A stretch of 64,000 bases of DNA from Hygrocybe punicea. Its lineage: Eukaryota; Basidiomycota; Agaricomycetes; Agaricales; Hygrophoraceae. The notes below the pieces were generated by a model that worked only from the letters and a program-made list of their open reading frames with translations, had not been told where the DNA came from and made no database searches. Positions 1,697 through 57,112 of this stretch are shown here, one piece after another (position 1 is the stretch's first letter; each line of letters opens with the position of its first letter). The DNA is taken from the NCBI GenBank assembly GCA_963556145.1, contig OY744462.1:1178001-1242000 (forward strand). The letters are read 5' to 3'. Position numbers and translations under genes: made by a program.

Positions 1697-2284
1697 TGTA
1701 GAGGCTCCGGATCGTGTGGATCTGTTTCCCCTTCATATCCAACTCCGTTCCCATCCATTACCATTCCTGTATCATTGATTCCATTTGATTCCACTCATTT
1801 CCATCGATTCCGCTCCGGATTCCGCCTCCAGAATCATTCCTACTCAAGATACAATGTCCCTAATGACCCAGAATCAGTATGTTTCTAGTTATATATCATG
1901 TATCTTCATTTCCCGTCTCCTTGTACATAGCACCACTCCATCATTCCTCCACTCCACTACCCCTATCACTTACAGCCTTCGCTTGTAGTACATGGTTACT
2001 ACAGCACAGGATCCCTCACAGTAGTATAAAAGTAGTACATTTATACTACAAACAATATAGAACCATATAGAAATACTGACACCCATATAGAATCCTCTTA
2101 TCGTCCTGTCCCATATATACTTGCCTTCGTCCTTTCCCATACTCTACCTCTGAGTCCAGAACCCCTGGATTCGGGTTGGATTGACTAGACCTCCAAAAGA
2201 AACTAAATTCCTCTGATCACTTCTTAGCTGATCACCCTTTCCGTAGATTCCCATTCTGGGTCTACAACAGAACTCGCCGTCACA
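1697..2284 (+). repeat. Left (5') LTR of element A
   Basis: Starts TGTAGAGGCTCCGG and ends CGCCGTCACA. It matches 12030-12629 along its length, including the shared block around TACAGCCTTCGCTTGTAGTACAT and the following CAGTAGTATAAAAG, a plausible TATA region. A related diverged solo LTR lies at 60737-61476 on the other strand. Confidence 0.85.
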
Positions 2285-2286
2285 AC

Positions 2287-2303
2287 TGGAGCCCACTGCG
2301 AGG
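2287..2303 (+). promoter_or_regulatory. Primer binding site of element A
   Basis: TGGAGCCCACTGCGAGG begins 2 nt after the LTR and starts with the TGG expected to pair with a tRNA CCA end. Element B has the same 17-mer with one change (TGGAGCCCACCGCGAGG) in the equivalent place, so both elements probably use the same tRNA primer. The tRNA species was not identified. Confidence 0.65.
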
Positions 2304-2508
2304 AACTTAGTTCTTTTGTCTTTTCATACCCTCCCCACCGCCGGGTTTGACTTTCATGACGTTTTTCTTTTGTTCCTGACTCTAATCGCTCAGCCCCACT
2401 TACGACTTCGACCCCTTCCTCGTATCTCCCCAACCCGACCCGCTTCCCGATTTGAAAATTCCCTGACATGACGCACGGATTCATGCCTCTCCGAGGTGAT
2501 TGTTCAGC

Positions 2509-3004
2509 CCCAATGTTTCACGGTGACGAACACGACCTTCCCCGCTTCTTTGACTAAATTGACATGCTCAGCTCCGACTGTGGACTCACAGACGCTATGA
2601 AGATTCGCTACACGCTCCAGTACCTCAATAACGACGATTATGAACTTTGGTCTACCCTTCCTGCCACTTCAGCAAAAGACTTCATCGCTTTCCAACATGC
2701 CATTTTCGCCTTCTATCCCAGTGCCATGGACAGTATTCGGTATACGATCGCGGATCTCGATCAATTGATTAGACAACAATCGGCTTATGGTATAGAGAAC
2801 AAGACGGACTTAGGACAATATTTCCGGGACTTCATACACATTTCCGGAGTACTATACGACAATGGCTGTTTATCGGACAAGCAACGGAATGAGTATTTTG
2901 CCAACGGATTTGACTCAGATCTTCGTCAACATGTTGAAGAGCGACTTCATTACCTTCTTCCCAGTCATTACCACGACGATCCGTACCCGGTTATATTTTC
3001 CATG
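2509..3004 (+). pseudogene. Gag remnant of element A
   Basis: The reading frame around 2564-2990 aligns by eye with the gag of element B: NDDYELWSTLPATSAKDF against SDYELWASLPSATGVDY, then a tyrosine/aspartate-rich TIADLDQLI against TMADLDRLM, and GLGQYFRDFIHISG-type against GEYYREFIRISG-type segments. This is the N-terminal capsid-like part of a Ty3/gypsy gag. Similarity starts upstream near 2509 and is broken by a TAA near 2553. It ends at an HDDPY motif near 2990, after which the frame is lost in repetitive DNA. The zinc knuckle and protease present in element B are missing. Not functional as it stands. Confidence 0.7.
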
Positions 3005-4318
3005 ACGCCATGTTATTTTTACTTTCCAGTCACCATTCTGTTCTGGAATCCGTTGTCACTGCAGCCCCCATTGCCATTTCCAGTCCCGATTCCGGTCCTG
3101 CACCCGTACCTGTCGCAGTCATTTCACCTCCAGAACAGATCCTGTCCTCGATCCTGTCCTCGATCCCGCCCACTGTCATTCATTCCATCCCCCACATTCA
3201 TTCCGGTCCTTCATATAGTCTGTCCCTGTCATCGTGTTCCCTGTCCCTGTCCATTCTGGTGCCTGTCGAGACCGTCATTTGTTTACAGGTATTGTCGTCC
3301 AGTCCCGTGTCATCCCTGTCCGATCCCACTCCCGATTTATCGATGCCGGTCACCGATTTATCCATTTCATTTCCTATTTCGTCCATGTCGTCTCCGGATT
3401 TGACCCCTCTGCTTTCCGTCCATGAACTCGTACCGGACCCGCTCCCATTGTCCTCGGATTCTCCAGAAATAGACATTTCATCCTCGATACTGTCATCCTT
3501 TTGTCTTCCGTCTACGTCTATCGAGATTCCGTTGACCTTGGTTGAGTATTCCGTACCCGTTCCCATTCCAGACCCCATTCCACCCCTCTTATTTGATTTC
3601 GATTCCAGTTCCGATTCCGTTATGTCAACCCCTTCGTTCCTGGTACCCCTTGTCGTTTCCGCTCCCGTGTCATTCCCAGTTCTGTCTTCGCACACTTGGG
3701 GCATCCCGTCGTCTTTAGACCCATCACGCGGCGCACCCATTATATGGGATCGTGTTGGTGTCGGCACTCCGGTTCTCGATTTTATTTTATTCCTCGTTTC
3801 CGTCTTCATTCTACTTTGTCATCGCATTTTGGACCTCCGCCCCCTCGACTCATCGCTCAAATATTTGCAAGAAGTTCTCCGCCTCCTCTCATTGTTCCAC
3901 CTCCGACCTTCTTTCAGAAACTCTTGTGGGGATATAGACCCATTTCTGTCACCCATTTTTGCGTTTTCATCCTCCGTTCCACTTTCTGTTCCGTTCATGC
4001 TCCCGGTCCTCACTTATTTATATTTTCATTTCCGTTTATAGTTTTCTTTGTTTCCCGTTTGTTTCAGTCCCATTCCGTGTCCATTGTATTCCAGTCCTGC
4101 CCTCCACCTCGACCTCCAGATTCTGGCTTATGTAGTTACCCGTTTCTCCCTTTCCGTCATAGATTTTATTATGTACTCATTTTATTTTTATGTACATTGT
4201 CCTGCGGTTCATTTCCCTTCCCTTTCCATCCATTTCCCTTCTACTCCCTTCTCCTTTCGTTGAGTTTCGTGTTGGTCATGTTGAGTTGGCCGAAGATATG
4301 GGCTTGGTTCACACATAG
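3005..4318. repeat. Low-complexity pyrimidine-rich stretch inside element A
   Basis: The plus strand is built of degenerate TCCGATTCC, TCCCATTCC and GTCCCTGTCC units. It opens long frames on both strands (serine/proline-rich on plus, acidic glycine/serine/aspartate-rich 3198-3809 on minus) without domain-like segments. It occupies the place of the gag tail and pol in the intact relative. I regard the open frames as a by-product of composition. Confidence 0.55.
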
Positions 4319-6012
4319 TCAGTTCAGCTCCTTCGTCCAACAGGTTAGCTTCGAATGGACCTCCGCAATGTACTCCGAGAGGCTGTCCACGATCGTCGAT
4401 ATCTCCCTCTGCATTTCCGTTGCCATCTTGCGCACTGCCCAGATGTGGTCGTTGATTCCAGCTCTGATCCGTGGGTGCTTGAATGGATTCCCTCGTCTTC
4501 CACCATCCTGCTCCGATTCCATGTCTGGTTCAACGTCGGTCAACGTCCGCTTACTCGTCGACGCCTCTCCGGCCCGCAGCTTGGGCTTCTTCATGGGCTT
4601 CAGTATTTTCTTCACGACGATTTTCCTCTTCGGACTACCCACCTTCTAGTGTTGCCACAGCTATAGCCGATGTTTTTTGAAAAATTGCCTTTTTAGGCTA
4701 GTAAAATTAGGCAAAATTATGAAAATATTTGAGGAGATGGGTGAAGCCAAAAGCTGAGGCCTGAGGGATCACTCAAGGGTGCTAAGGATTTGGGGCTCAA
4801 TTCTCAGGGTTCTTCAGGGTTAGCTGTTGGATGGTAGCTGGCTAGGCTCAACAGCTATGGTTGAATAACTCTGAAGATTGGGCACCAAATTCTTAGCACC
4901 CTTAAGTGACCCCCCAGCTTTTGGCTTTGCCCATCTCCTCAAATATTGTCATAATTTTGCCTAATTTTACTAGCCTAAAAAGGGAATTTTTCATAAAACA
5001 TCGGCTATAGCTGTGGCAACACTACCGCCTTCACCTTCCCTTTCCTTTCCGCTTTTCTGGCTCCAGTGGCTGGTCCTTTCGTCGATAATCCACAACATTG
5101 TTTTAGCCTTTTGCACCGATCGCATGTATCCCTCAATTCCGCGACAAACCACGTTGGCGGTCACACACACATCACATTGTCAGATCCGGAACGACTGCAT
5201 GTACTATGGATTAGTTAGGCACAACGGATATACGAGTCCGCAAGATATTACTTACCCCCAGAAGCTTTCCCTTCGGTCCCATGTCCCCATTCCCGCTCAA
5301 GTTCGAAAAGTCGTCCCCGCTATTGTACTCTCCGTGAATGGTCTTGTCGTCTTGGTTGACCTTTTTGTTTTTGATCGCGTTAAGTGCTTGGAGTTTTTCG
5401 TATTTTCGTAGTTGCTGGTCAGACCAGGTGCCCTCCTCGTCCTCACTTCCATGATTGCTGGTTTGTGCGGTCTCCTCCCAGTCCCTTTCCGCAGCTGCAT
5501 CAGCCTCCCTTTTTGCTGCCTCTGCCGCCTTCACCCTTTCTGCCTCCTCAATCTGCTTCTCTGCCTCCTTGACCCGTTGTCTCCTCACTTCCTCCTCCTT
5601 TTCCTCCTGCAACCGTGACGCTTCCTCGACTTCCCAACACCTCGCCTCTTTCCATACCCGTTCGTATTCCTCCCAGCTCCGCAACCACTCCTCGACCTCC
5701 ACCTCCATCTCTCCGCCCATCGAGAAGTCCCTCGGTTCTGTCACGTCGATTCCGTTGTCCCGGATTTCCATCAATATTCCCCTGTAGTTCTGCTGCTGGG
5801 TATCGTTAGTCCATGCCGTTTACAGGAACAGGATCTCTTACAATGGCCCGTCGTCATCTCACCACCCATTGCTGTGCCTCGTTCTCGAATCCATCACGTA
5901 CAATATCGATTCCAGCCGCGTCGACTTCTAGTAACTCGGCTACGGCGCTCTTGAAGTCTTGCTGAGTTTCCGCATCGAGAGTATTGAGGAAATTGTCATA
6001 TTCCGTCGACAT
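4319..6012 (-). pseudogene. ORF3 of element A: antisense coiled-coil and paired-cysteine protein, damaged
   Basis: Lies opposite to gag, with its 5' end towards the 3' LTR. ATG at 6012 opens MSTEYDNFL and continues to AQQW, matching MSQVYDNFL and AQQW of the element B gene. Exons are about 6012-5842 (57 codons), 5789-5256 (178 codons) and 5194 onward. The introns at 5790-5841 (ends CTAACGATACCCAGCAGCAG) and 5195-5255 sit at the same positions and phase 0 as in element B. Exon 2 gives NYRGILMEIR (B: RAYNGIVAELR), VEEWL and a long Glu/Arg/Ala coiled coil. Exon 3 encodes CDVCVTANVVC and CDRCKRLKQCC, then a basic stretch and a C-terminal helix-rich part. Damage: TGA at 5854-5856 where B has Arg, TGA at 5180-5182, a 1-nt frameshift between the two cysteine clusters, and a MITE at 4649-5022. 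Confidence 0.75.
4649..5022. mobile_element. 374-bp palindromic MITE with TA target duplication
   Basis: Outer ends are GTGTTGCCACAGCTATAGCC and its exact reverse complement, flanked by TA at 4647-4648 and 5023-5024. The inverted similarity continues through TTTTTAGGCTAGTAAAATTAGGC and AGCTTTTGG blocks almost to the centre. TA duplication and the inverted ends fit a non-autonomous Tc1/mariner element. It splits the third exon of ORF3 of element A. No coding capacity. Confidence 0.9.
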
Positions 6013-41938: not shown

Positions 41939-42733
41939 TGTAAAGGCGAGGTCGGGGTGGCTGCGGAATAATAATCCTAAGCCTGTGGGGTCAGCGTAGA
42001 AGTGACTAGGAATAGTCTAACAAGCTTCAGTAAGATAATAGGATATAAAGAGTAAGAAGCCGCCGAGTAAACTACTGAAATCTATCGAGACCGATCGAAG
42101 CCGACGAAGCCGACGATGTCGGGTACGGCGGGTCGGGTGTCGGGTGACAAGAAACGTAGAGATAAAGGCGGTAGAACGACGGGGAGGGCGTCGAGGAATC
42201 CGATGAGCAATGTGTGCGATGGAATTTACTGAGAGACTTAATTCTCAGAGAGAGGAAATGGGGGAACTGGTTTCTTATTTTGAGACGGCGCTTGGGCACC
42301 GTTTTTATACTACAAATTTGTGTACCTAGATTCGGACGAGAGTCCTCGGCCGATGAGAGGAGACAAAGGAGAATAAAAATGGGGAAGTAGGAAGAGCGTT
42401 GCGAGGCGACGATGACAGGGAAAATGGGTGGAAGATATAAAAAACCGTAAAAGATGCAATATACTTTACTATATCCCCATAAGGGAGACGCTAGGCGTGA
42501 ATAAGGCAAGTCCGATGTCAGGATCCCAGTCCGATGAGATCTATCTTCGATATTTGAAGTTCCGTGAATTTATGAGATAGACCGACCAGGTACGTGAGCG
42601 GCCGTGCTAGTCGGTATGCATCGGGTTGCGTCGGGTTACGTCGGGTTCGAGCGTAGATTGCTAGAGACGTCGGGTTCGAGCGGATTCGCTAGATATCGAT
42701 GTTACGGCCTCAGAGGGTCGAGGACCCTCTACA
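41939..42733 (-). repeat. 3' LTR of element B
   Basis: 795 bp. ORF3 starts 171 bp beyond it on the plus strand, so an antisense promoter in or near this LTR would be needed to express that gene. Confidence 0.9.
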
Positions 42734-42903
42734 TCTCCTTGGGTCTTCTAATAGAGACCATCCGTGGTCGAGAATATGGGGTCTCCGAATGCGGGTCGCG
42801 AATGTGGCCAATCACGTGAGCGGCCAAACAACGGCAAAGTAAAAAAAAGAAAAATTTTCTCGTTGTTGATCCGACCTTTCCTCTACACCATCACACGTTC
42901 ACA

Positions 42904-44300
42904 ATGTCCCAAGTCTACGACAACTTCCTCGCTTTCGTCGAAAGCATCGAACCCGATGTCCGGGCGGACTACGAAGAGGCCGTCAACGCGGTCACCGTGT
43001 TTCATAGCGACGACCTTGTAACGATGGTGGACGGCAACGAGGGGATGGCCCAACAATGGTTAAGCGGCCGCAAGAAGGCGCTGGTGAGTTTCCTTATTGA
43101 CTACGCGTGTCCTAAGATAGCTCATGCCGTCCCGCCAGCGTGCTTACAATGGAATCGTCGCGGAACTCCGAGCTGGTGGTACGAGGCCAGTAACGCCACC
43201 GTTATGGGCCAACCGCCAATCGTACGCCAACGATGTCGAAGAGTGGCTGAAAGAAGCGGCGGACCGGGAGAGGCAGGAACAGGAAGAAGCCAGACGGCGG
43301 GCGGATGAAGAAGCGGCTACGCGGGAAGAGGAGGCCAGACGGATGGCAGAGGCAAATGCACGAGCGGAGGCGGAGAAAAGGCGAAAGGCGGCAGAGGAAA
43401 GGCGGGAGCGGCTTAGAATAGAACAACACGAGCAGCACTGGCATCAAGAAGCGGACCGGGTTGAAAGGGATGGAGCCGCGTATCGGCGGCGGCTCAGCGA
43501 AGAACGGCGAGCTGAAGCAAACGCATCGGTCGCGGGTGAACCAAGGACTGAGTCGATTCCGGAGGGCGAAGCCGCAGTTGAGCCAGAGGAAGGCCCCGTC
43601 GACCCGGCACCAGAGACACCGGCCGATGTAGAAGACGTAGATACGCCGGGCGTAGAGACCGGAGACCTGGCTGGTACGACGGTGAGTTCATGTGTCGGTT
43701 CCTTTGTTCTTCAGTCACTGATCCTGGTAATAGTTCACCGGGCCGTTTCCCCTACAACCCTGCACCAACTGCGTCAAGGCGCAAGAGGCGTGTTGAGGCG
43801 TCACGGGCTACGTGTGCGAACGATGCCGGAGGCTGAAGAAGAGATGTACTAACGCTACACACCGGACGGGCGGGGGTCGGCGCAAGGTGGATACCGGAAA
43901 GGGCAAAGAGGTCGCGGTCGGCACGAGGAAGCCGTTGTCATTCACGACAAAGCCCATCCGCAGTAGGCCTGCCCGGGCCTCAACGAGCAAACCGCGGGTC
44001 GAGGACGTGGAGTCGGTCGAGGACGATGACGAAGACGAGGAGGAGTCGGAGGAAGAGCGGCCGACGAAAAGGCTTAGGACGGCCTCGGCAGCGAACCCGT
44101 TCGTTTTGACGATGGAGAATTACGAGCAAGTGTCGGCGCGGCTAGCGGTCCTTATGGAGGAGCTGGGAGCCCTGGGCACCAACGTCAACTGTCACCTCGT
44201 CCACTTCGGTCAAGAGTTCCAGCGGCTTCGCGTCGATCTCGAACGGTCGACCTCAAGGTTGGCGATGTTGAAGCGGGATTACGAGACCGGCCGCCTGTAA
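42904..44300 (+). CDS. ORF3 of element B: antisense coiled-coil and paired-cysteine protein
   Basis: Unknown function; not a shadow, because pol ends at 44509 and nothing is coded opposite it. Exons 42904-43083, 43139-43681 and 43734-44300 join at phase 0 and give 429 residues plus stop if one TGA is ignored. Residues 1-60 form a compact start (MSQVYDNFLAFVES, AQQWLSGRKKAL). From about 61 come RAYNGIVAELRAG, VEEWL and a long Glu/Arg/Ala coiled coil (about 100-190), then a Pro/Glu-rich linker. Exon 3 has CTNCVKAQEAC and CERCRRLKKRC, two CX2CX6C clusters like those seen in many mushroom proteins, separated by the TGA at 43794-43796. A basic region, an acidic run EDDDEDEEESEEE and a C-terminal amphipathic helix follow. 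It may bind nucleic acid and oligomerise. ORF3 and pol converge on AT-rich DNA at 44300-44370 that may end both transcripts. Confidence 0.75.
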
Positions 44301-44508: not shown

Positions 44509-47500
44509 TTAATCGTCGTCGGGTGAGGAGTCTATAGAGGGCGGGTACGTCGGATCATCAAGATCGTTTGAATCGGTATCGTCGGCATCGGGGTATTGTA
44601 AGAAATCGTCCAACGGTATCAATATTTTTGAGCGGGCGTGGTAGGGTACGACTCGGAAAGCGGCAAATCGAGATTTAGAAACCGCACCGTCGAGTTCGGC
44701 GAGTATGTAGGATCCGCCTTCTGTTTTCCTGATGACAACCATGGGTCCAAAGTACCGCGGTTTTGCTTTACGATCGAGAGACATTTCGATACGTGAATTT
44801 CGGACGAGAACGAGGTTACCGGGTTCGAAGTCGTAAACTTTGATCGTGTTGGCGTATTTCTGCTCGAATTGCCGGGCAGATGCGAGCCGAGATTTGGTAA
44901 GCTTTTCTTTGACCCGATCGAGGTCGGCTTCTCGTTTACGAAGTTGTCGGGCGCGGATGACTATGAGGTCGGTCGTAGACATCGTATCTTGCGTCGGAAC
45001 CATGTACGTAGCTTCAGCAAAATCGAATGGAAAAAGCGGTTCTACTCCGTGTGCGATGTAGTAGGACGAGTATCCGAGGCTCTTGTGTGTCGTGACCCGT
45101 TCGGCCCAAAATACGGAGTGGGTTACGGTGTGCCATTTCTTTTCATCTCCATCACAACTTTTCATAATGGCCTCCCGGACATCTAGGTGGCGACGCTCAA
45201 CGGGTCCATTCGCTTGTGAGTTATAGGGCGAAATGCGGATGTGGCGGATACCGTAGCGGGAGGCGAGATAGTCGAGCGCTTCTACGAACGGCTTGCCGTT
45301 GTCGGTGACGATTTCTTCGAGAGCGCCCCAACGGCATAAGATGTCTTCGAACAAGAACGTGCCGATGGTGGAGCCGGTGGAGTGGTACCGAGGTACCACT
45401 CCGGGGGCTCACGCAGGACTCGAGGGAAAGGTCGACTGGATAGGAAGGATGCACTGACTACTACATCTGGAAGGCTACTGACTAGGTCAAACCGTGGGAA
45501 CCTGATCACGTGACTGACCAGGCACAACTACTACAAGTGCCCCTCCTCCTCATGGTGACGTCCTCGTCACCATACCGCTACTAAAAGAAAACAAAAAGCA
45601 AAACAAAACTGACCAAGAAAAAAACTCTCCAGTCACGACTCCCAGTCCCTCACGATGCCCCGGGCCTTACACGTGAGGCGGGACCATATCGTCCTCCAAG
45701 ATCGTTGGGGGTGGTAGATGACCAAACTGTAACTCTGCTCTGCTCCTCCATCCTCGAATGCCTCTGGGACTCACATCGCAGGGTAGGATAAAAACGTTCA
45801 AAACCATAAGTTCTTGTAGCCCAGGGTGTGAGTTCTTGTGATCCGAAAATAGACTGGGTGGTTCGTGCGAAAGTAAATAGGTACGGTGCTGTCAAGCAGT
45901 GATGGTTCGTAGATAGGTCGAATATCCAATAAATGTCGAGGGTGGGGAAAGGGGATAGGACGGGACAAGGTACGGTGTAAACGGGGGAAAGGGAAAGCAT
46001 ACGGGTGCATTGGGCCATGCGGTGGCATCGGGGATTCTCGATACGAGGGGACTAGCGCTGGGGTGCTAAGTGGTCGCGGCGGTGACTCGTTTGGGTCCCT
46101 ACGGGTCGGGGAAGTCGCCAGGGTCGAGAACGAGGTTGCGGGGAGCTGAACGAGGGCTCGAGGAGCCGGGTATGGTGCAAGAATCCGGCCAAGAGATGGT
46201 GACGTGGCGGAACGCGGTGGGGGTCTGGGAACGGTGGGCACGGTGGTATTGGATCGAGGTGGGGTGCTCCGGGATGGTGAACGGGTGGGCCGCGAGCTTC
46301 GTGAGTCGATCCGGGGCTGGGTATGTTGGCAGAACGGGGCCGTGCGATGGTGACGTGGCGCGTGGCCCGGGTGTCTGAAAACAACGGCGGGGGCTCGTTT
46401 GGCGCAATGGAGGTGAACGGGGTGTCCTGGCCGGTGGCACGAGGGCACGGGTGGTCGAATGGGTCCGTGTGGGGCTGGGGTACACGAAAGAACGGGGGGG
46501 CGCGACGGATCCGTGGTGTGACCAAAAACGGCGGTGGGGGCTCGTTCAGGGCGTTAGCGAGACGCAGGGTGCTCTGGGGGGTGGGCCGCGAGATTGGTGA
46601 GCTGGTCTGGGGCCGGTTGTGCTGGCAGAACGGGGCCGCGCGATGGTGACGTGGCGCGTGGCTCGGGTGTCCGAAAACGACGGTGGGGGTTCGTTTGGCA
46701 CAATGGAGGGAAACGGGGGGTCCTGGCCGGTGGGACGAGTGTGCGGGGAGTCGAATGGGTTCGTGTAGGGGTGGGGGTGACGAGAAACGGGGTCTAACAA
46801 TGGTGACGTGGCAGATCCATGGGGCGACCAAAAGGTGCGGGGCGGTTCGTTTGAGACGACGAGGCGCGACGGGGGGTTCTGGCAGATGAGCCAAGGGTGC
46901 GGGGAGTCGAACGCGTGCATTTTGGGTCCGGGGTGCATGAAAAAAACGGGGTCCGCGCGGCGGCGATGCGATTTTCGTTGGGTTGTCCAAAACTCGCAGT
47001 AGCGGGCCATGTGGGATCCTGATGGGGAACGCGGGGCTCCGGAACGTCGAACGAAGTTGCGGGGGGTCGTGTGGACATAGCTGGGTCTAGGGAAAGTGAA
47101 AATTTGGGGGGTGGTGAGGCCGGAAAAAGTTGTCTCGCAAGAAAAAATGTAAGAAGTGGGAAAACCATGAGAAAAAGAGAAGCGTGGGTCGAAGAACACT
47201 CTCATCACCACGTTGGAGTGGTACCGAGGTACCACTCCGGGGGCTCACGCAGGACTCGAGGGAAAGGTCGACTGGATAGGAAGGATGCACTGACTACTAC
47301 ATCTGGAAGGCTACTGACTAGGTCAAACCGTGGGAACCTGATCACGTGACTGACCAGGCACAACTACTACACCGGTCTCGCGGCGTAACATGCGGAACTC
47401 AGGGTAGGCGGACAGGGAGCAACGGGCTTGGACGATGTATCGATAGCCGCCGGATCGTGGCATAAACATTGTGTCGACATACGCTTTACGAAATAGCGAG

Positions 47501-50120
47501 GCCGGTGTAGCGACGGTGGGCGGAATGTGATGATAACGCATTTGCCGTACTTGGCACTGATGGCAAGACTGGACGTACCACTTAACGTCGTGGTCGAGGT
47601 GCGGCCACCAGAAACGATCGAGTAGCCGAGCGCGGACGGAGAATATACCCTTGTGGCCGAGAGAGTCGTGAGCGTCTTTGAGTAACTGAAGCCGGCGGTC
47701 GGGCGGTATGACGAGTTTGTGTTTTCCGTGACGGTCTTTGCGCCAAAGCTTGTTATCGGTGACGAAGAATTCAAGGGCGTATCGTAGGAACAGACGGTAT
47801 TCTTCGTCCGTGAAGTTCGCGGGTCGGGTTAGATCTTGTAACCAAGTCTCGACGAGGGCAAGACGAGCGTCGGCCGCGCGGGCTTTATCGGATCGTGGTA
47901 TGTCAGATACGGCTTCCTGATTTGTGTAGACGAGGACGGCGGGTAATTCTTGGAGTCGGTCGGCTGTGGCACGGCAGCGGCCGCATACGGCAATCGGCTT
48001 AGACGGTATGGGGACGGGTCGGTAGTTGACGACTTCCATAAAGAAACCGTAGGAGTGGTCGAGCCAATCGTCGGAATCGTTGATCTCCTCGGGGTCTTCT
48101 GCAGCGCGGGGACGTCGGGAGAGTCCGTCGGGTGCACCGTGTGCGGAAGCGGGTACGTGAACGAGTCTAAAGTCAAATAAGAGCACACCGGCTATCCATC
48201 GGTTGATCGTTGCATTGGGCTGAATGTCGGGGTTGTTGAGCATCCCTTTTATGTACTTCGCGTCGACTTCAACGGTGAGGTTGCGGACGCCGATAATGAA
48301 AATCCGATAGGCGCGGAGGGCCCTGAAGAGGCCGTAGAGTTCGAGCTTGGACTGGGAGTATCGGGCTTCGTGTTCGTTCCACGATATTGAACCAAAGCGA
48401 TTCGGATAGCGCTTTCCGTCGGCGCGGATTTGCATAAGAACGAAGCCGACTCCAAGAACGGATGAATCGACGGCGAGAATCACTTCCCATTCACGCGTGT
48501 AGTCGATAGCGCGCAGCGCTGGCAACGTAATGACGGCGTTTTTGAGGTAGTCGACGGCGGTCTCTTCTTCTTCACCAAATTCGAAGGGTATACCTTTGCG
48601 GGTAAGGCAGACGAGGGGTCGGGAGTGAAGCGAGAAGTCCTTGATAAAAATACGCAAGACGCCGCAGATACCGAGAAAGGCGCGAACTTCGGTGAGGTTG
48701 GTCGGCAGTGGCCAATCGCGAATCTTCTGTACTTTGGAGTCGTCGGCTACTCTTCCTTCGTATGTGCATCGGTGGCCAACAACGATGACTGAGGGTCGAC
48801 ACAACTCGAGTTTTTTGCCGTTGAAGGTACCGCCAACATAGCGGAAACGCTGGATGACGCGGTTGACACCTTGGAAGTGTTCCCAAATGAAACGTCGGAT
48901 TGCCGGGTTCTCGGGTATAGTCTTGTAGGTACTGTCGGGTTGCTCGTAGCGGGTTGGAGGCCCTTTGACGGGAATATCGTCCATATACGGAATGGCAAGA
49001 TGAGGGATTTCGTCACGGAGGATGTACGTAGAGTCACCGTGTAGGATCTGCGGGGAATTTGTGTATCCCATAGCAATCCGCGTAAGTCGAAGCGTTCCGA
49101 GTGGAGACTGAAAGGTCATATAGTCACGAGACGAGGGGTGGACGAGGCGTTGGTCGAAAGAGACGAAGAGGTCGAAGGAAGCGTAGCAAGAGTGGCCGCC
49201 AAAGGCCTCGGCCAAGTGCTCGGTCATGGGCGGTACGGCGGGATCGCGGATAGTGACGGCGTTAAGCGGCTGTAGATCGTGGACAATTCGAAGAGACTTC
49301 CCATCCTTTTTCAAAACGCAGAACCAGCGGGAGCGGTATGACGAATTCGAGGGTTCATAGGTACCGGCGTTAATTTTGTCTTTGATGATGCCGATGACTT
49401 CGTTAAGGATGCCGGGTGGGATTGGGATATTGTGATGGACCCACGGGTCGTGCGGTACGGTGGGAATGTGGATCGGCGGGAAGTAGTCCGTATTGAACTG
49501 GCCTTTCTCGGATTCGTTCCAGGCGAAGGCGGCTTCTTGCGTTTTGATGATATGGTGGCCGAGTTTTTCTTCCTCAGGCCAAAGGAATCCATCCGGGTTC
49601 ATCGGCATTGCGTCGTGTCGTTCCTGGGTATAGCGGGTGCCGGGTGTAAAGTCGGGCGGGTGAGTCGGGAGCGTGGGTAAATCGGCTAGCGGGTCGCCGG
49701 TGATCTCGCGTATGATACGGTATTCGTCGGGGAGAGTGGTAGAAATTGGGCGGATACGATCGGCTACCTTCTTATACTTTTTCTTGGTAACGACTCCTTT
49801 TAGGTCCCTGGTAGGGGGGGTGGTATACGAGATATAGGTAGCGTGTTCAGTAGAGGCCTTGTTACAAATATTCGAAGAAGAAATATGTGACGCAGGAGCG
49901 GAGACGGAACAAGACGAAGGAAGGGTATCGGTAGTACGTAGCTGATTTTGTACATCGGTCAACAATGAAATGTACTGGGCGGCAGTCTGAGGCCGAGACG
50001 AAGAGAAATCTAAATCGATAGAAAAACATAAGTCCTCTTCTAGGGGAAACAGCAAAAGGGAAGCATAGTTCGTGGTATAGGTGTGGTCACTTTCGAGTGG
50101 CGGCTTCTCATCTCCCGGTG
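44509..50120 (-). CDS. pol: Pol of element B: reverse transcriptase, RNase H, integrase (split by C')
   Basis: Makes and inserts the DNA copy of the element. In order: RT with [30 protein letters not shown] and the catalytic PYMDDI (48976-48987); RNase H with [34 protein letters not shown] and [15 protein letters not shown]; integrase zinc region HDSLGHKGI...CHQC (about 47660-47550); catalytic core [15 protein letters not shown] and [16 protein letters not shown]; and a C-terminal [15 protein letters not shown] and [20 protein letters not shown]. No chromodomain. The frame runs from just after a TGA near 50180 to 47372, is interrupted by element C' and resumes at 45377. Pol is in the -1 frame relative to gag with about 20 nt of overlap. 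Tyr-Met-Asp-Asp replaces the Tyr-Leu-Asp-Asp seen in many gypsy elements. Confidence 0.92.
45378..47371 (-). mobile_element. Element C': second TRIM-like copy, inserted in integrase of element B
   Basis: LTRs of 158 bp at 45378-45535 and 47214-47371, target duplication CCGG at 45374-45377 and 47372-47375, primer-site complement CTCTCATCACCA at 47199-47210. The interior is related to element C, with the same Pro/His-rich frames (now on minus) and tandem units around CACGTCACCATCGCGCGGCC. It is one of the youngest insertions because it breaks an otherwise open pol. Confidence 0.9.
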
Positions 50121-50156
50121 CGTCCTTTCCGAGAGGTATCTCTGGGTCCTTGACTT

Positions 50157-52487
50157 CTAAAAATCCGGCTTTCCGGTGTCAGACCGCTCTCGTCGGTTCT
50201 TTTGGTTGTGCTCGATGGTGGGCAAGGTGACGACGGCACCGGTGTTTGGGTCCGTGATCGTGACTTGTTGTTCTCCGTTTTTATAATCCTTCGTAAGGGC
50301 CTCGGAAAGCGTGAAGAACGGGCGGCCGATGAGGATCTCGTAGGGGGCGTCGTCGACGACTTGGACTTGGAGGAAAAGATCGACGTCGCCGAAGGTGAAT
50401 TTTAGGTTGGCGATCCGGCCAAGGGTGTCGTTGTCGCTTTTATTTGCCGACTGCATCCGCATCTTCATATTTTGGAGGCCGTAACCGAGTTTCTCCCAAA
50501 TATCGCGCCGCATGCCGATGATCATGGAACCGTTGTCGAGGACGCACTCGAATACGAATTTGCCGTTGATGAGCGGGTAGACCGCACGGAGAGGGACTGA
50601 GTCGCGGCCGACGACGAGCGGGACGTTTTCCTGACAGTGTTGACAGGCACGAGTGGGGATTTTGGGTGCGTGAAAGTGGAAGACCTCGACGTTGTTACTT
50701 TCGGCGGTGACCTTTTTCGACGTAGTGAGGTCCTTCATGTGACGGCGGGCGTCGGACGACATGGCTAAAAGTTCTCGCTGCGAAATGCAGACTTGAGAAT
50801 CGAGCGCGCGGTCGATGACGGATTTGGCGATACCGGGATCTTCGATGGGGGCTTGGTAGCGGTATTGGGGGTGCGATGTGGGAAGGTTCTGGGGAGTGCG
50901 CGGTACAAGGGCGGTCGGCTCGGTCGGCCGCGTGTTCGAAGGAGGGACTATGGTGATCGGCTGCTCGTTGATAGGTCTGGCCGTTTTCTCGGCGGGTTTC
51001 GCGGCGGGGACAGACGTGGAAGTGGTGGGCAGATTGGGAAATGTTTCTCTAGACTTGCCTTTCGTCTTTGATGGGATTTCTACACCGTCGAATCTAACCC
51101 GTTTACGAAGCCGCTGCACTTCGGCTTCCAGAACCTTAATCTGTTCGTTGTCGTTGTCGATGTCGGACGTCGTGGACTGAAAGATGTCGGCGTACTCGGT
51201 GGTGACCTCTGGTTCGTAGGTGGGTACTTCGACGGCGGAGACGAAGTTAGCTTTTACATGAGGCGGCGGGTCGCGTTGGAACGGTTCTGTGGGGTTGCGG
51301 GCAGGGGGAGCGCGGTTGCCGGGGTTCTGTGCGTGCCACGCGTCGAAGCGTTCCCTCATATTTTTGCCGACGATAGCCTTTGGAAGATACATTCCGTTAG
51401 GTAACACGATGCGGCCGTGCTCGTTCTTGCGGCATATCCCGTCTCGAGTGTACTGCTCGCAAATAGGACAATCGCATATACAATGGAACGGGTCGTCGCA
51501 AAAGAGGCAGTTGAAATTGGTGAAACCCTGTCCCGCGGTGGTCGGCTCAGCCCTATTTGCACACGGCTTTGGGGGGTTGTTGCGTTCGGTGAGGGCTTGC
51601 GTGAGGACGGCGAGTTGTTGCGAAACGAGACGAAATAGGTCGGATACGTTAGGTTCGACCGGTTCCGCTTTAGGAATGACCGGGTCATAGCGAGCGGGTG
51701 GCGGGTAGCGGGTGGCGGGTTCCATTGGAGTCGAGTACCGGATGGCGGCAGGCGACGTTGACGATAGACGAGAGACGGTGGACGGTTCGGCCGCGGTTCT
51801 GGCCAGCAAGAAGTGGGCGCAATTGTGGAAATCCTGGAAGTCGTAAGGGTCGCTATGGAAATGGTTCGGCTTTTGGTACTGCAGACGGGTTTTGATGTCC
51901 TTTTTAAGCTCGACATGGAAGCCGTTCTCGTACGCGATGTTGCGTTCTCGGGGAGAGATTCGACCCTTGTCTAAGAGGAATCCCGAGATCCGGATGAACT
52001 CGCGGTAATATTCGCCAAGTTCAGCGCGGGTACAGATACCGTAAGCGGTTTGGGTGTGCATAAGACGGTCGAGATCCGCCATAGTGTACCGGTGATCGTC
52101 TTCCGTACCCGGGTATAGCACGAGTACGCTCTTTTTGAATGCGGCATAATCGACGCCGGTCGCACTAGGTAAACTTGCCCAAAGCTCATAGTCGCTAAGC
52201 GACGCGTAGCGCAGACTATGCTTGATGCATCCTGCGTCGTCGAGAGCGGCATCGGCAGCAAGTATCTCGACTTCTTCGAAGAAGCGGTTTAAATTGAGCG
52301 GGTTCCCGTCGAAGGTCGGGGCCGTGGAGTGACCGCGAGCGGGCATTTGTCGTGGAGTAACATGGGGAGCGGTGACGTGGGGAGCGGTCGAAGATCCAGA
52401 GGTCGAAGTCATTGTAGGTGGAAGGAGCTGAGATGTCGATGAAGCGGTTGTCGGGTGTACGATGAGCGGGTCGGGTAACGTGGGCAA
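50157..52487 (-). CDS. gag: Gag and protease of element B, 776 residues
   Basis: Forms the virus-like particle and carries the protease. The N-terminal 60 residues are Thr/Ser/Pro-rich. The capsid-like region has PTFDGNPLNLNRFFEEVEIL, LSDYELWASLPSATG, YTMADLDRLM and YREFIRISGFLLDKG. The zinc knuckle is CLFCDDPFHCICDC, a CX2CX4HX4C pattern near residue 335. The C-terminal part holds a retropepsin-like domain: CVLDNGSMIIGM, with Asp-Asn-Gly in place of Asp-Ser/Thr-Gly, and YEILIGRPFF. The frame ends GKPDF at 50157; pol follows in another frame. About 430 bp of leader separate the start from the 5' LTR. Confidence 0.92.
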   Translation of the reverse strand: MPTLPDPLIVHPTTASSTSQLLPPTMTSTSGSSTAPHVTAPHVTPRQMPARGHSTAPTFDGNPLNLNRFFEEVEILAADAALDDAGCIKHSLRYASLSDYELWASLPSATGVDYAAFKKSVLVLYPGTEDDHRYTMADLDRLMHTQTAYGICTRAELGEYYREFIRISGFLLDKGRISPRERNIAYENGFHVELKKDIKTRLQYQKPNHFHSDPYDFQDFHNCAHFLLARTAAEPSTVSRLSSTSPAAIRYSTPMEPATRYPPPARYDPVIPKAEPVEPNVSDLFRLVSQQLAVLTQALTERNNPPKPCANRAEPTTAGQGFTNFNCLFCDDPFHCICDCPICEQYTRDGICRKNEHGRIVLPNGMYLPKAIVGKNMRERFDAWHAQNPGNRAPPARNPTEPFQRDPPPHVKANFVSAVEVPTYEPEVTTEYADIFQSTTSDIDNDNEQIKVLEAEVQRLRKRVRFDGVEIPSKTKGKSRETFPNLPTTSTSVPAAKPAEKTARPINEQPITIVPPSNTRPTEPTALVPRTPQNLPTSHPQYRYQAPIEDPGIAKSVIDRALDSQVCISQRELLAMSSDARRHMKDLTTSKKVTAESNNVEVFHFHAPKIPTRACQHCQENVPLVVGRDSVPLRAVYPLINGKFVFECVLDNGSMIIGMRRDIWEKLGYGLQNMKMRMQSANKSDNDTLGRIANLKFTFGDVDLFLQVQVVDDAPYEILIGRPFFTLSEALTKDYKNGEQQVTITDPNTGAVVTLPTIEHNQKNRRERSDTGKPDF

Positions 52488-52894
52488 TGACGGCGTGGAC
52501 GAAGACGAAGATGGGGACGATGACGATGACGGAGTTTTCGATGTCGAGAGCGAAGACGTGGACGGGGGTTCTAGCGAGGTCGAAGTCGGGGACGTAGGCG
52601 ATGCGGGTGTCGAACTGAGATCGGATGAGTCGGGTGTAATGGTAATTATCGGTATATCGACCGATTCGAGACTGTCGGATGAAAGATATAGGGGGGTGTT
52701 TGACCCTGAGACGAGCGGGAGATTGTTATGTCGAGCGAGGTGGTCGGGTACTAGCTGGAAGAAGTCGTCGTCGATTGTCGGGTCGAGGGCGGCTAAAGAT
52801 AGTTCTTGTTGAAGAGTTCTTCGAGGAAGTTCTCGAAGACGACGGTCAGAGGGAGGGATACGGGAAGAGGAAGCTATGGTGGTGCTAGACTATT

Positions 52895-52913: not shown

Positions 52914-53737
52914 TGTAAAGGCGAGGTCGGGGTGGCTGCGGAATAATAATCCTAAGCCTGTGGGGTCAGTGTAGAAGTGACTAGGAATAGTCTAACAAGC
53001 TTCAGTAAGATAATAGGATATAAAGAGTAAGAAGCCGCCGAGTAAACTACTGAAATCTATCAAGACCGATCGAAGCCGACGAAGCTGACGATGTCGGATA
53101 CAGCGGGTCGGGTGTCGGGTGACGAGAAATGTAGAGATAAAGGCGGTAGAACGACGGGGAGGGCGTCGAGGAATCCGACGAGCAATGTGTGCGATGGAAT
53201 TTACTGAGAGACTTAATTCTCAGAGAGAGGAAATGGGGGAACTGGTTTCTTATTTTGAGATGGCGCTTGGGCACCGTTTTTATACTACAAATTTGTGTAC
53301 CTAGATTCGGACGAGAGTCCTCGGCCGATGAGAGGAGACAAAGGAGAATAAAAATGGGGAAGTAGGAAGAGCGTTGCGAGGCGACGATGACAGGGAAAAT
53401 GGGTGGAAGATATAAAAAACCGTAAAAGATGCAATATACTTTACTATATCCCCATAAGGGAGACGCTAGGCGTGAATAAGGCAAGTCCGATGTCGGGATC
53501 CCAGTCCGATGAGATCTATCTTCGATATTTGAAGTTCCGTGAATTTATGAGATAGACCGACCAGGTACGTGAGCGGCCGTGCTAGTCGGTATGCATCGGG
53601 TTGCATCGGGTTACGTCGGGTTCGAGCGTAGATTGCTAGAGACGTCGGGTTCGAGCGTAGATTGCTAGAGACGTCGGGTTCGAGCGGATTCGCTAGATAT
53701 CGATGTTACGGCCTCAGAGGGTCGAGGACCCTCTACA
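52914..53737 (-). repeat. 5' LTR of element B
   Basis: 824 bp, matches 41939-42733 with few substitutions and one extra tandem unit (CGAGCGTAGATTGCTAGAGA type). Confidence 0.9.
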
Positions 53738-54003
53738 CCGTTACCCACCATGACAATTCCGCTTTATCACACCTTCCTTTTTCGTTTCCTTTTACCTTTT
53801 GTCTTCTTTTGGACATCATTGTTTCTTCTTGTCCTTGTTCTCTTTTCTTCCTTTCTTCTAGAACAATCCAGACCGACCATGGACACATCCCCACGTTACC
53901 TTGCTGTACCCGAATAGTTCCCTTGCCGATGGACATCATTGCTGTTGTCTTTTCCCTCGCCCTGACATATTGTTGACTTCATCCCATGACAAACCGATTC
54001 ACA

Positions 54004-54114
54004 ATGGCTGTACTCCCAACACAGCTAATTACCATAATCATCATTGGCAGCATCGCCATCACCTTCCTTATTGGTTTCTACCTTGTTATGATCTATCTTT
54101 GGCATCAGCACTGA
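54004..54114 (+). CDS. Tiny single-pass membrane ORF in module X, copy 1
   Basis: 36 residues: MAVLPTQLIT, then an uninterrupted Ile/Leu/Phe-rich segment of about 24 residues, ending MIYLWHQH. Copy 2 is at 55672-55842. It lies in the unit split by element B. No family recognised. The conserved start and hydrophobic length suggest a real membrane peptide, but expression is unproven. Confidence 0.4.
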   Translation: MAVLPTQLITIIIIGSIAITFLIGFYLVMIYLWHQH

Positions 54115-54965
54115 AACCCTTCCACCATTGATACTTCTGACTTCCACCTCAACAATATCTCACCACGTAATTGACAATTGCCATTCTTGGATATATGGTT
54201 TCCACTTTCGTATTCCGTGCCTACCATTATCCTCCCTGACGATCCGACGACATTTCTCACCTGCACGCATGCCCTGAACAATCCTTGATCACAGGACATT
54301 TCACTGTTCTCTCTAATCCAACCATCGCCGAAGCACATTCTTTCAGACTTCGACCACAGACCATACGACTTCCCAAACAGTGAACCAACCCCTATCGCAT
54401 ATTGTTCACACAACATCGCTTCAGTGCAGCACCCGACATCTTATTCTCACAGCTTGTCACTCATGCCATGACTCGAAACCTGGACCCACGTTCATTTATT
54501 GTTACGGATCGCTTCTGCAGCGGGCTCCGGCAACAATCAACTTAAATAGGGATTGGATTCCAGAGGAGAGGAGAGCAGCTTTCATTGTTGCTTACAGCTA
54601 AGACAACACTGCTAAGAGGGGGGGTCAAGGTCTATGTCATTGCGAGCCGTGGGGGTTACCCAAAACAAGATGAGTCTGCCCCAAGAACCAGACTAAACGT
54701 AAGGAAAGGAAAGAAGAAAAAGTCCGAACCAACAACAAGAACAGTATATATAGTGACTGGTCTTGAGGGGAGGTAAATAGAAATACAACCATGAAGCCAT
54801 AACCTGTCCAACTCTACCATGTGTTCACCATGAGGCGTACATGAGGCGTCCTCATGTCGATGTTCTCACGATCCAACTGGAGGCCTGGGTGTTGTTGAGG
54901 AATAGAGGGGTCCGGATGACTCGGATGATTTGTCATCGGATCATGTGATGTGCAGAATTGCCTAT

Positions 54966-55328
54966 TCAGGGTCTACACTTGCTGTAACAGGCAAGTGCGC
55001 AGTCTGGCAAGTGCATTGCACGGTTGGGTCGAAGATGGGTATCGTCTAGTGTAGGATTGGTGATGAGAGTGTCTTGAGGTAGCGGGGACATAGCGACAAG
55101 GTCGGTATAAAGGAAAACAAAGGAATGTATGGAGGGAAAACCAACTAGGATGGTGGGATAGTCAAGGTCAGACATGTGAACAGCATAAGCTGTACCGGAT
55201 GATGATGTCTGTGTCGATGACGTATCGAGGAGCAATGTCTTGTCCTGTCTGTGGAACAATGCGGTCCACCTGATGTCGGTATTCGTCCAAGAAAGGGTAT
55301 TGTTGTAAACGAGTGTGGGAGATATCAA
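54966..55328 (-). CDS. ORF in arm Y, unknown
   Basis: 120 codons with LVYNNTLSWTNTDIRWTALF, a Thr/Ser-rich stretch and AYAVHMSDLDYPTILVGF. The inverted arm encodes a near-identical first half (56190-56354, ending in a stop after SDLD) and then diverges. The similarity simply follows from the inverted repeat, so coding status is uncertain. Confidence 0.3.
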   Translation of the reverse strand: MISPTLVYNNTLSWTNTDIRWTALFHRQDKTLLLDTSSTQTSSSGTAYAVHMSDLDYPTILVGFPSIHSFVFLYTDLVAMSPLPQDTLITNPTLDDTHLRPNRAMHLPDCALACYSKCRP

Positions 55329-55671
55329 GGTTATAGATGGAAAAGGTTAAATGAATGTGGGTCCAGGTTTCGAGTCATGGCACGAGTGACAAGCTGTGGG
55401 AATAAGATGTCGGGTACTGCAATGAAGCAATGTCGTGTGAACAATATGCGATAGGGGTTGGTTCACTGTTTGGGAAGTCGTATGGTCTGTGGTCGAAGTC
55501 CAAAAGAGTATGCTCCGGCGATGGTCGGATTAGAGAGAACAGTGAAATGTCTCGTGATCGGGGATTGTTCAGAGTTCACATGCAGGTGAGGAATGTCGTC
55601 GGATCATCAGGGAGGATAATGGTGGGCACAGGGTATGAATATGGAAACCAAATATCCGGGAATGGCAATTG

Positions 55672-55842
55672 TCAATTACGTGTCGATATATTGTTGAGGT
55701 GGAAGTCAGAAGTATCAATGGCAGAAGGGTTTCGGTGCCGATGCCAAAGATAGATCATAACAAGGTAGAAACCGATCAGGAAGGTGATGGCAATGCTGCC
55801 AATAACAATTATGGTAATGAGCTGTGTCGGGAGTACAGCCAT
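55672..55842 (-). CDS. Tiny single-pass membrane ORF in module X, copy 2
   Basis: 56 residues. The first 35 match copy 1 except for one Ile to Val change; residue 35 is Arg instead of Gln, and a polar tail NPSAIDTSDFHLNNIS follows. Of eight differing codons in the shared part, six are synonymous. Confidence 0.45.
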   Translation of the reverse strand: MAVLPTQLITIIVIGSIAITFLIGFYLVMIYLWHRHRNPSAIDTSDFHLNNISTRN

Positions 55843-57112
55843 TGTGATCGGTTTATCGTGGGATAGCGTAAACAAGATATCGAAGGGAAAAGACAATGTC
55901 GGTGACGTCCATCGGCAAGGAGACTATTTGGGTACAACAAGGTCACGTGGGATATGTCCATGGTCGGTCTGGATTGTTCTAGAAGAAGGGACAAAAAGAG
56001 AACAAGAATAAGAAAATACAAGGATGTCCAAATGAAGAAACAATGACGTTGAAAGGAAGACAAAGGACAAAAAAAAATGAAAAAGGAAGGTGTGCAGTGC
56101 AGAATCGTCATGGTGAATATCGGAATGGGCATCGGGGTTGGAAGCAGAGTTGGAAACGTAACATTTATCCTTTTCCATCTATAATCTTGATACCTCCCAC
56201 ACTCGTTTACAATGATACCTTTTCTTGGACAAATACCGACATCAGGTGGACCGCGTTGTTCCACACACAGGACAAGACACCACCCCTCGATACATCATTG
56301 ACACAGACATCGTCATCCAGTACAGCTTATGCTGTTCACATGTCTGACCTCGACTAGCCCACTGTCCTAGTTGGTTTTTTCCTCTATACATTCCTTCATT
56401 TTCTTTCATACCAACCTTGCCGCTATATCCACGCTACCTCAAGACACTCTCATCACCAACCTCACACTGGACAATACCCATCTTCGACCTGACTGTGCAA
56501 TGTACTTGCCAAACTGCGCACTTGCCCATTACAGCAAGTGTAGACCCTGAATTGGCAATTCTGCATGTCACATGATCCGATGACAAATCATCCGAGTCAT
56601 CCGGACCTCTTCTATCCTCAATGACACCCGGGCCTCCAGTTGGATCACGAGAACATCGACATGAGGACGCCTCATGTATGCCTCATGGTGAACACATGGT
56701 AGAGTTGGACATGTTGTGGCTTCATGGTTGTATTTCTATTTACCTCCCCTCAAGACCAGTCACTATATATACTGTTCTTGTTGTTGGTTCGGACTTTTTC
56801 TTCTTTTCCTTTCTTTATGTTTAGTCTGGTTCTTGGGGCAGACTTATCTTGTTTTGCGTAACCCCCACAGCTCGCAATGACACTAGACCTTGACCCTCCC
56901 CTGTTAGCAGTGTTGTCTTAGCTGTAAGCAACAATGAAAACTGCTCTCCTCTCCTCTGGAATCTGATCCCTAGTTAAGTTGATTGTTGCCAGAGCCCGCT
57001 GCAGAAGCGATCCGTAACAATAGTTTTTAAAAAGAAATTTGTTGCAGTACATTTCAATTTGGCCACTCGGAACTAAGTGGCCGAGTAATACTCACTACTA
57101 CTACCTCAGTGG

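Follow-up and report, generated by a model that had tools for sequence, protein, structure and literature searches.

Additional open reading frames (ORFs) lying antisense to gag-pol are known from plant Gypsy elements and from the fungal element Boty (PMC7264820). In plant Ty3/Gypsy elements they are represented by the aORF-3R genes, i.e., gene23 of Grande, that of RIRE2 and TRP28 of Retand, and some of the Retand elements are non-autonomous (PMC7264820; PMC11963269). Boty of Botrytis cinerea likewise carries an additional antisense gene, brtn (PMC8365987; PMC7264820). The roles of these antisense accessory genes of long terminal repeat (LTR) retrotransposons are described as not determined (PMC7264820). 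Here, we report on an antisense gene, ORF3, that is carried by two retrotransposon families of the basidiomycete Hygrocybe punicea. One copy of each, the Ty3/Gypsy element B and the element A, is present in a window of 64,000 nucleotides (assembly GCA_963556145.1, contig OY744462.1, positions 1,178,001 to 1,242,000, forward strand), and both families were followed through the genome (92.2 Mb, 42 contigs). In contrast to the plant aORF-3R genes, ORF3 shows no match to TRP28 of Retand (PF04195) or to SMC in Pfam scans, it encodes a Zn2Cys6-like cysteine module, its gene model contains two predicted introns and its host is a fungus, while the A family resembles some Retand elements in being non-autonomous. 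The likeness of brtn to ORF3 is that of an extra antisense gene in a Gypsy element of a fungus, and Boty is an ascomycete element. Among the top-ranked results in the open PMC literature no paper was found that describes a zinc-cluster antisense gene from a Gypsy element of a basidiomycete, and the main text of a survey of transposable elements in Laccaria holds no mention of antisense, ORF or zinc (PMC3411680).

In element B, ORF3 (42904-44300, plus strand) is located between pol and the 3' LTR in antisense orientation, with 208 bp separating it from the pol end. This arrangement, originally predicted from the two window copies, was found throughout the genome. Of 20 fetched B loci, 17 directly show the order 3' LTR, ORF3, antisense pol, and the fetched stretch of the other three does not include the pol C-terminus. 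A query with the pol C-terminus matched at all 131 places scored (131 of 675 candidates), and for 124 of these 131 an antisense ORF3 exon 3 lies within 5 kb among the matches listed, at given distances of 763 to 1101 bp and in one case 2409 bp. Four of the remaining seven pol C-termini have exon 1 where it would be expected or close by (C1:1932842, C2:7150130, C36:1329732 and C6:5104879), at C6:967348 exon 3 is about 8 kb off, which suggests an insert, and C3:5234071 and C7:362439 have no ORF3 exon among the matches listed. Searches with the ORF3 exons themselves gave at least 150 matches for exon 1 of B (150 of 150 scored, all with E <= 2.8e-32; best 150 of 361 candidates), 150 of 150 scored for exon 3 of B (best 150 of 485 candidates) and 275 matches for exon 2 of A (best 150 of 289 candidates scored). 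As the exon queries give so many strong genomic matches, ORF3 is not a chance open frame; its two versions are regular parts of high-copy families with hundreds of copies in one genome.

The gene of element B comprises exon 1 with 60 codons (42904-43083), exon 2 with 181 codons (43139-43681), encoding a charged stretch and an acidic region, and exon 3 (43734-44300), encoding a CX2CX6CX7CX2CX6C module and a long C-terminal helix, all on the plus strand. They are separated by the predicted introns 1 (43084-43138, GTGAGT..CAG) and 2 (43682-43733, GTGAGT..TAG). In element A, ORF3 is on the minus strand with exon 1 of 57 codons and one in-frame TGA (5842-6012), exon 2 (5256-5792) and exon 3 (4241-5203), the last of which is broken by stops and by an insertion at 4647-5024. 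This 378-bp insertion resembles a miniature inverted-repeat transposable element, with 113-bp arms that are 95% complementary. The original prediction had regarded the two genes as homologous, which agrees with 26-30% identity in exon 3, six shared cysteines and two predicted introns that are in phase 0 and matched in position in A and B. Its exon sizes of 60 and 181 codons for B and of 57 codons for A are retained, exon 2 of A has 179 codons by the model, not 178, and the gene of element A ends at a stop at 4241 instead of 4319. It also needs correction in that both window copies of ORF3 are broken, that of element B by a TGA codon that falls in frame within the Cys module of exon 3. Intron ends are GT..AG in all 17 aligned A copies and, for each intron, in all 24 aligned B copies, and in 16 of the 24 B copies all ORF3 exons are stop-free and in frame. 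The 24 B copies used for introns and constraint were L001, L003-L008, L031-L046 and that of the window; L002, L047 and L048 were excluded as truncated or interrupted, and L029 and L030 because they are the loci already counted as L003 and L004. The 17 A copies were L010-L016, L018-L023, L025, L026, L028 and L057, with L013 lacking the start of exon 1; the window copy, which equals L009, and L017, L024, L027 and L058 were excluded (interrupted, short or diverged).

Between copies, the pairwise ratio of non-synonymous to synonymous substitution rates (dN/dS) has a median of 0.25 in A (136 pairs) and 0.28 in B (271 of 276 pairs, five with dS <= 0.01 being dropped), and all pairs are below 1. As CpG decay is heavy, observed counts of non-synonymous and synonymous changes (N/S) were compared with those expected from the mutation spectrum, with pol from 13 copies as a control. 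For shared variants the observed/expected N/S is 0.51 in A (P=3e-10), 0.61 in B (P=6e-4) and 0.24 in pol, these P values being those of events that are not independent, as related copies share history. By exon, the ratio is 0.24 for exon 1 and 0.55 (P=0.01) for exon 3 of B, and 0.61 (P=0.002) for exon 2 and 0.42 (P=2e-8) for exon 3 of A. Singletons are also depleted (A 0.47, B 0.64, pol 0.52), and therefore the contrast of old and new variants is weak. Amino-acid changes are thus depleted in both ORF3 families. The commonest class of shared variants in A and in B copies is CpG to TpG, a pattern suggestive of cytosine methylation or of a process like repeat-induced point mutation.

The A family has the layout LTR, gag ORF, antisense ORF3, LTR and a length of roughly 5 kb. 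The window copy retains one LTR only, the 5' LTR (about 1697-2289, plus strand), followed by a decayed gag (2468-4128, plus strand) of which other copies have longer open frames; the LTR on the ORF3 side is present in other A copies. An LTR match lies 5' of ORF3 in all ten fetched A loci, and none of them matches B pol at E <= 1e-4. Seven of the ten have a gag match; in six of these it is on the strand opposite ORF3, and in the rearranged locus L052 gag and ORF3 share one strand. The complete copy L057 has LTRs that differ at 6 of 618 sites, a gag ORF of 568 amino acids whose end is about 80 bp away from the stop of ORF3, and an ORF3 interrupted in exon 1 by a single in-frame stop. In a genome search, open gag frames of about 590 amino acids were found repeatedly, and two copies of A gag that were scanned had no Pfam match. 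TR-GAG elements are flanked by LTRs and have a gag frame but lack pol. With its LTR pair and gag frame and no detected pol, the A family is a non-autonomous, TR-GAG-like family, which differs from TR-GAG elements in that it also keeps an antisense gene. The idea that element A had lost pol and kept ORF3 agrees with the lack of a pol match in this family, but it is incomplete, as A also keeps a gag reading frame of about 570 amino acids. That the gene is useful to the element, as had been suggested, is in line with its regular presence, the depletion of amino-acid changes and its retention where no pol was detected. Beside the 5' LTR, A and B both carry TGGAGCCCAC[CT]GCGAGG, which is likely a primer-binding site. 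On contig C35 (1851467-1871561), five A-type ORF3 matches lie exactly 4,334 bp apart and five gag matches show the same spacing, a pattern resembling a tandem array of A elements.

Fungal Zn2Cys6 regulators (Zn_clus, PF00172) carry the pattern CX2CX6CX5-12CX2CX6-8C, into which the spacing CX2CX6CX7CX2CX6C of ORF3 fits, being itself a spacing of Zn2Cys6. The paired CX2CX6C module seen in the two window copies holds up, as all six cysteines are conserved without exception in the 11 copies aligned from A and B, and the ORF3 protein of the B copy L003 has no cysteine beyond these six. On the isolated module Zn_clus scores 19.4 bits for B (E=0.0011) and 20.4 bits for A (E=0.00057). Scored separately, the second half of the module reaches 15.1 (B) and 19.3 (A) bits, in alignment with profile positions 1-15, and the first half yields no Zn_clus match. 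The second half also contains a basic knuckle, C-x2-C-RRLKKR-C, which canonical Zn2Cys6 modules have in the first half. Since it is the second half that aligns with the start of the profile, the halves appear as if swapped. In an AlphaFold2 model of exon 3, helices are predicted at 12-20, 30-46 and 123-185, the last mostly with a predicted local distance difference test score (pLDDT) above 90, so that ORF3, like the Zn_clus regulators, has a predicted long helix downstream of the module; it differs from them in that the module lies in the C-terminal half of the protein. Three weak sequence matches of exon 3 in the PDB (best E=0.018) were read as coiled-coil or acidic chance similarity, an envelope-like protein was rejected with a best 19-residue hydropathy of 0.80 (B) and 1.06 (A), and a substitute for nucleocapsid is weakened for B by a CCHC-pattern match in its gag.

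Between the LTR and the ATG of ORF3, two sites are common to both families. In element B these are the dyad GACCATCCGTGGTC (42756-42769, plus strand), about 20 bp from the LTR edge, and the E-box TCACGTGA (42812-42819, plus strand), 92 bp upstream of the ATG. All 19 B copies and 15 of the 19 A copies have an exact dyad core GACCA-N4-TGGTC, again about 20 bp from the LTR edge, and TCACGTGA precedes ORF3 by 90-125 bp in 15 B and 16 A copies out of 19 each. Genome-wide, GAGACCATCCNTGGTC occurs at 367 sites and its reversed control at none, and on contigs C1 and C2, 60 of 74 dyad sites are linked to an A or B copy among the matches listed. The other 14 have no A or B copy nearby among these matches and could be decayed copies, copies beyond those listed, or further ORF3 families. 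An RNA hairpin was rejected for the dyad, in A as in B and on either strand, because folding is no better than that of shuffles, and for this reason a DNA site is weakly preferred. As to the transcription from the 3' LTR side that had originally been proposed, the position of dyad and E-box suggests that ORF3 may instead have an internal promoter. A second type of candidate site is found in the unique 3' (U3) region of the LTRs. The U3 of B contains ACCCGAC six times, a 7-mer count reached by none of 300 shuffles, in an ACCCGA array partly at 10-bp spacing, and CGGAATC, with four to five occurrences, ranks first among 7-mers in four of six other A loci tested. The arrays of both families hold CGG, which is the half-site of Zn2Cys6 proteins, and are only suggestive as candidate targets of ORF3.

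Taking these features together, we give about even odds to what is the simplest reading, namely that ORF3 encodes a DNA-binding regulator of Zn2Cys6-like, coiled-coil type whose targets would be the LTR and leader DNA of its own element. According to this proposal the module would hold two zinc ions and the long C-terminal helix would mediate dimerisation, the protein would bind the CGG-containing U3 arrays and/or the dyad, and it would activate expression of the element, perhaps by countering methylation-based silencing. A promoter of its own, situated between the LTR and the ATG, would drive ORF3, and the A family would rely on reverse transcriptase and integrase supplied in trans. If ORF3 recognises DNA that is specific to its family, the A family would be expected to retain an ORF3 of its own, very different as it is; in that case pol could be borrowed but the regulator could not. 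VANDAL transposons, in which VANC is found, are not LTR elements, and VANC is likened to ORF3 by this proposed logic. The anti-silencing protein VANC of Arabidopsis VANDAL is element-encoded and recognises family-specific repeat arrays, which is a precedent for self-recognition (PMC5735166). A more specific version is held tentatively and is doubtful as a whole, namely that ORF3 is a self-recognising regulator with a swapped-half Zn2Cys6 module and its own antisense promoter, that the protein has co-evolved with the CGG arrays in U3 of its family, and that this self-control matters enough for even a gag-only family, which borrows pol, to retain a private copy.

Several results weigh against a DNA-binding regulator of this kind. 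The nucleic-acid-binding factor of the original prediction agrees with the Zn2Cys6-like spacing, but the module alone misses the Pfam gathering score of 21 in both families and full-length B ORF3 reaches just E=0.4 against Zn_clus. The basic knuckle comes second, in departure from the canonical order, the AlphaFold2 model has a predicted template modelling score of 0.28 overall with pLDDT of only about 64-73 in the Cys module, and Foldseek gave no PDB match for it. The array of the window B LTR has P=0.01 with 6-mers, but 0.16 with 8-mers and 0.59 with 10-mers; that of the window A LTR is not significant at any word length, other A loci give 6-mer P values of 0.13-0.15 (L052, L056) and a 7-mer P value of 0.74 (L056), the array of the diverged B copy L041 also fails, and the A U3 array is conserved no better than the remaining LTR. 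Constraint is not significant in exon 2 of B (0.90, P=0.31) and exon 1 of A (0.64, P=0.11), ORF3 is less constrained than pol, and the picking of copies by protein match biases the sample toward intact frames, chiefly in the query exons (exon 1 of B, exon 2 of A). Despite this picking, all three ORF3 exons are stop-free and in frame in just 4 of 17 A copies.

The first alternative uses the same arrays, and we regard it as unlikely. Here, ORF3 would be a VANC-like protein that binds family-specific arrays and strips methylation or silencing and would not act as a classical activator. The large CpG to TpG class of shared variants suggests methylated copies, the U3 arrays differ between families while the ORF3 proteins diverged, and the targets of VANC are often tandem repeats that vary between related elements (PMC5735166); the weakness of the A arrays speaks against it. 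Rather improbable in our judgement is an accessory role in the life cycle, in which ORF3 would bind RNA, complementary DNA or the pre-integration complex and help in nuclear import or target choice. Roles of this type have been discussed for plant antisense ORFs (PMC7264820), basic stretches are present in and after the Cys module, and a family without detected pol, such as A, would still need that step. However, B gag already contains a CCHC-pattern knuckle, and the precedent of fungal Zn2Cys6 modules is DNA binding. Very improbable is that the antisense transcript and not the protein matters, forming double-stranded RNA with gag-pol RNA that tunes silencing. ORF3 is convergent with gag or pol and this possibility was raised before (PMC7264820), but the depleted amino-acid changes, the invariant cysteines at 26-30% identity and the many open frames argue for a protein. 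The same low probability applies to ORF3 being a host gene that was captured, or a passenger that is merely carried along by hitchhiking. The predicted introns and promoter-like motifs of ORF3 are features that a captured gene might have, but both families carry ORF3 with matched intron positions and depleted amino-acid changes, and no homologue was found in a public protein collection (E <= 0.01 to E <= 10), whose fungal coverage was unchecked and which says nothing on absence elsewhere.

Element B has its 3' LTR (TGTA..TACA, with the ACCCGA array in U3) at 41939-42733 and its 5' LTR at 52914-53737, both on the minus strand. The LTR pair differs by 12 transitions and no transversions over 796 compared bases, with edges 1-3 bases longer (inner or outer) than the coordinates given here, the LTR ends are TG..CA, and CCGT at both outer edges represents the target-site duplication. 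Its gag-pol runs on the minus strand from 52889 to 44509 and comprises gag (50160-52889; DUF4100, one CCHC-pattern match and a weak aspartic-protease match), pol with reverse transcriptase, RNase H and integrase H2C2 (47372-50178), and the C-terminal part of pol (44509-45374), which has a weak integrase-core match and is convergent with ORF3. DUF4100 is linked to basidiomycetes and, together with the short introns and the Zn-cluster similarity, points to a fungal and probably basidiomycete host. The reverse transcriptase matches the Ty3 Gag-Pol chain with E=8.4e-30, and in the Pfam scan RNase H (535-663) is followed by H2C2 (824-879). By reverse transcriptase type, domain order, paired LTRs and target-site duplication, element B is a Ty3/Gypsy element. 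Its pol is split by an insertion of ~2 kb (about 45375-47371), which is a small LTR-type element; the ends are 161-bp direct repeats that are 99% alike, possibly TG..CA with CCGG flanks, and there are internal repeats. Near the 5' LTR, a long inverted repeat (53890-55951) has 500-bp arms that are 90% complementary and, in addition, 68-bp outer arms.

In H. punicea, one genome thus offers two very divergent versions of ORF3 with measurable selection, shared cis-sites and a module of metal-binding type. The A family, with gag and ORF3 and no detected pol, constitutes a natural experiment on antisense genes of LTR retrotransposons, and the role of such genes becomes directly testable by bringing ORF3 protein together with the LTR DNA of A and B.
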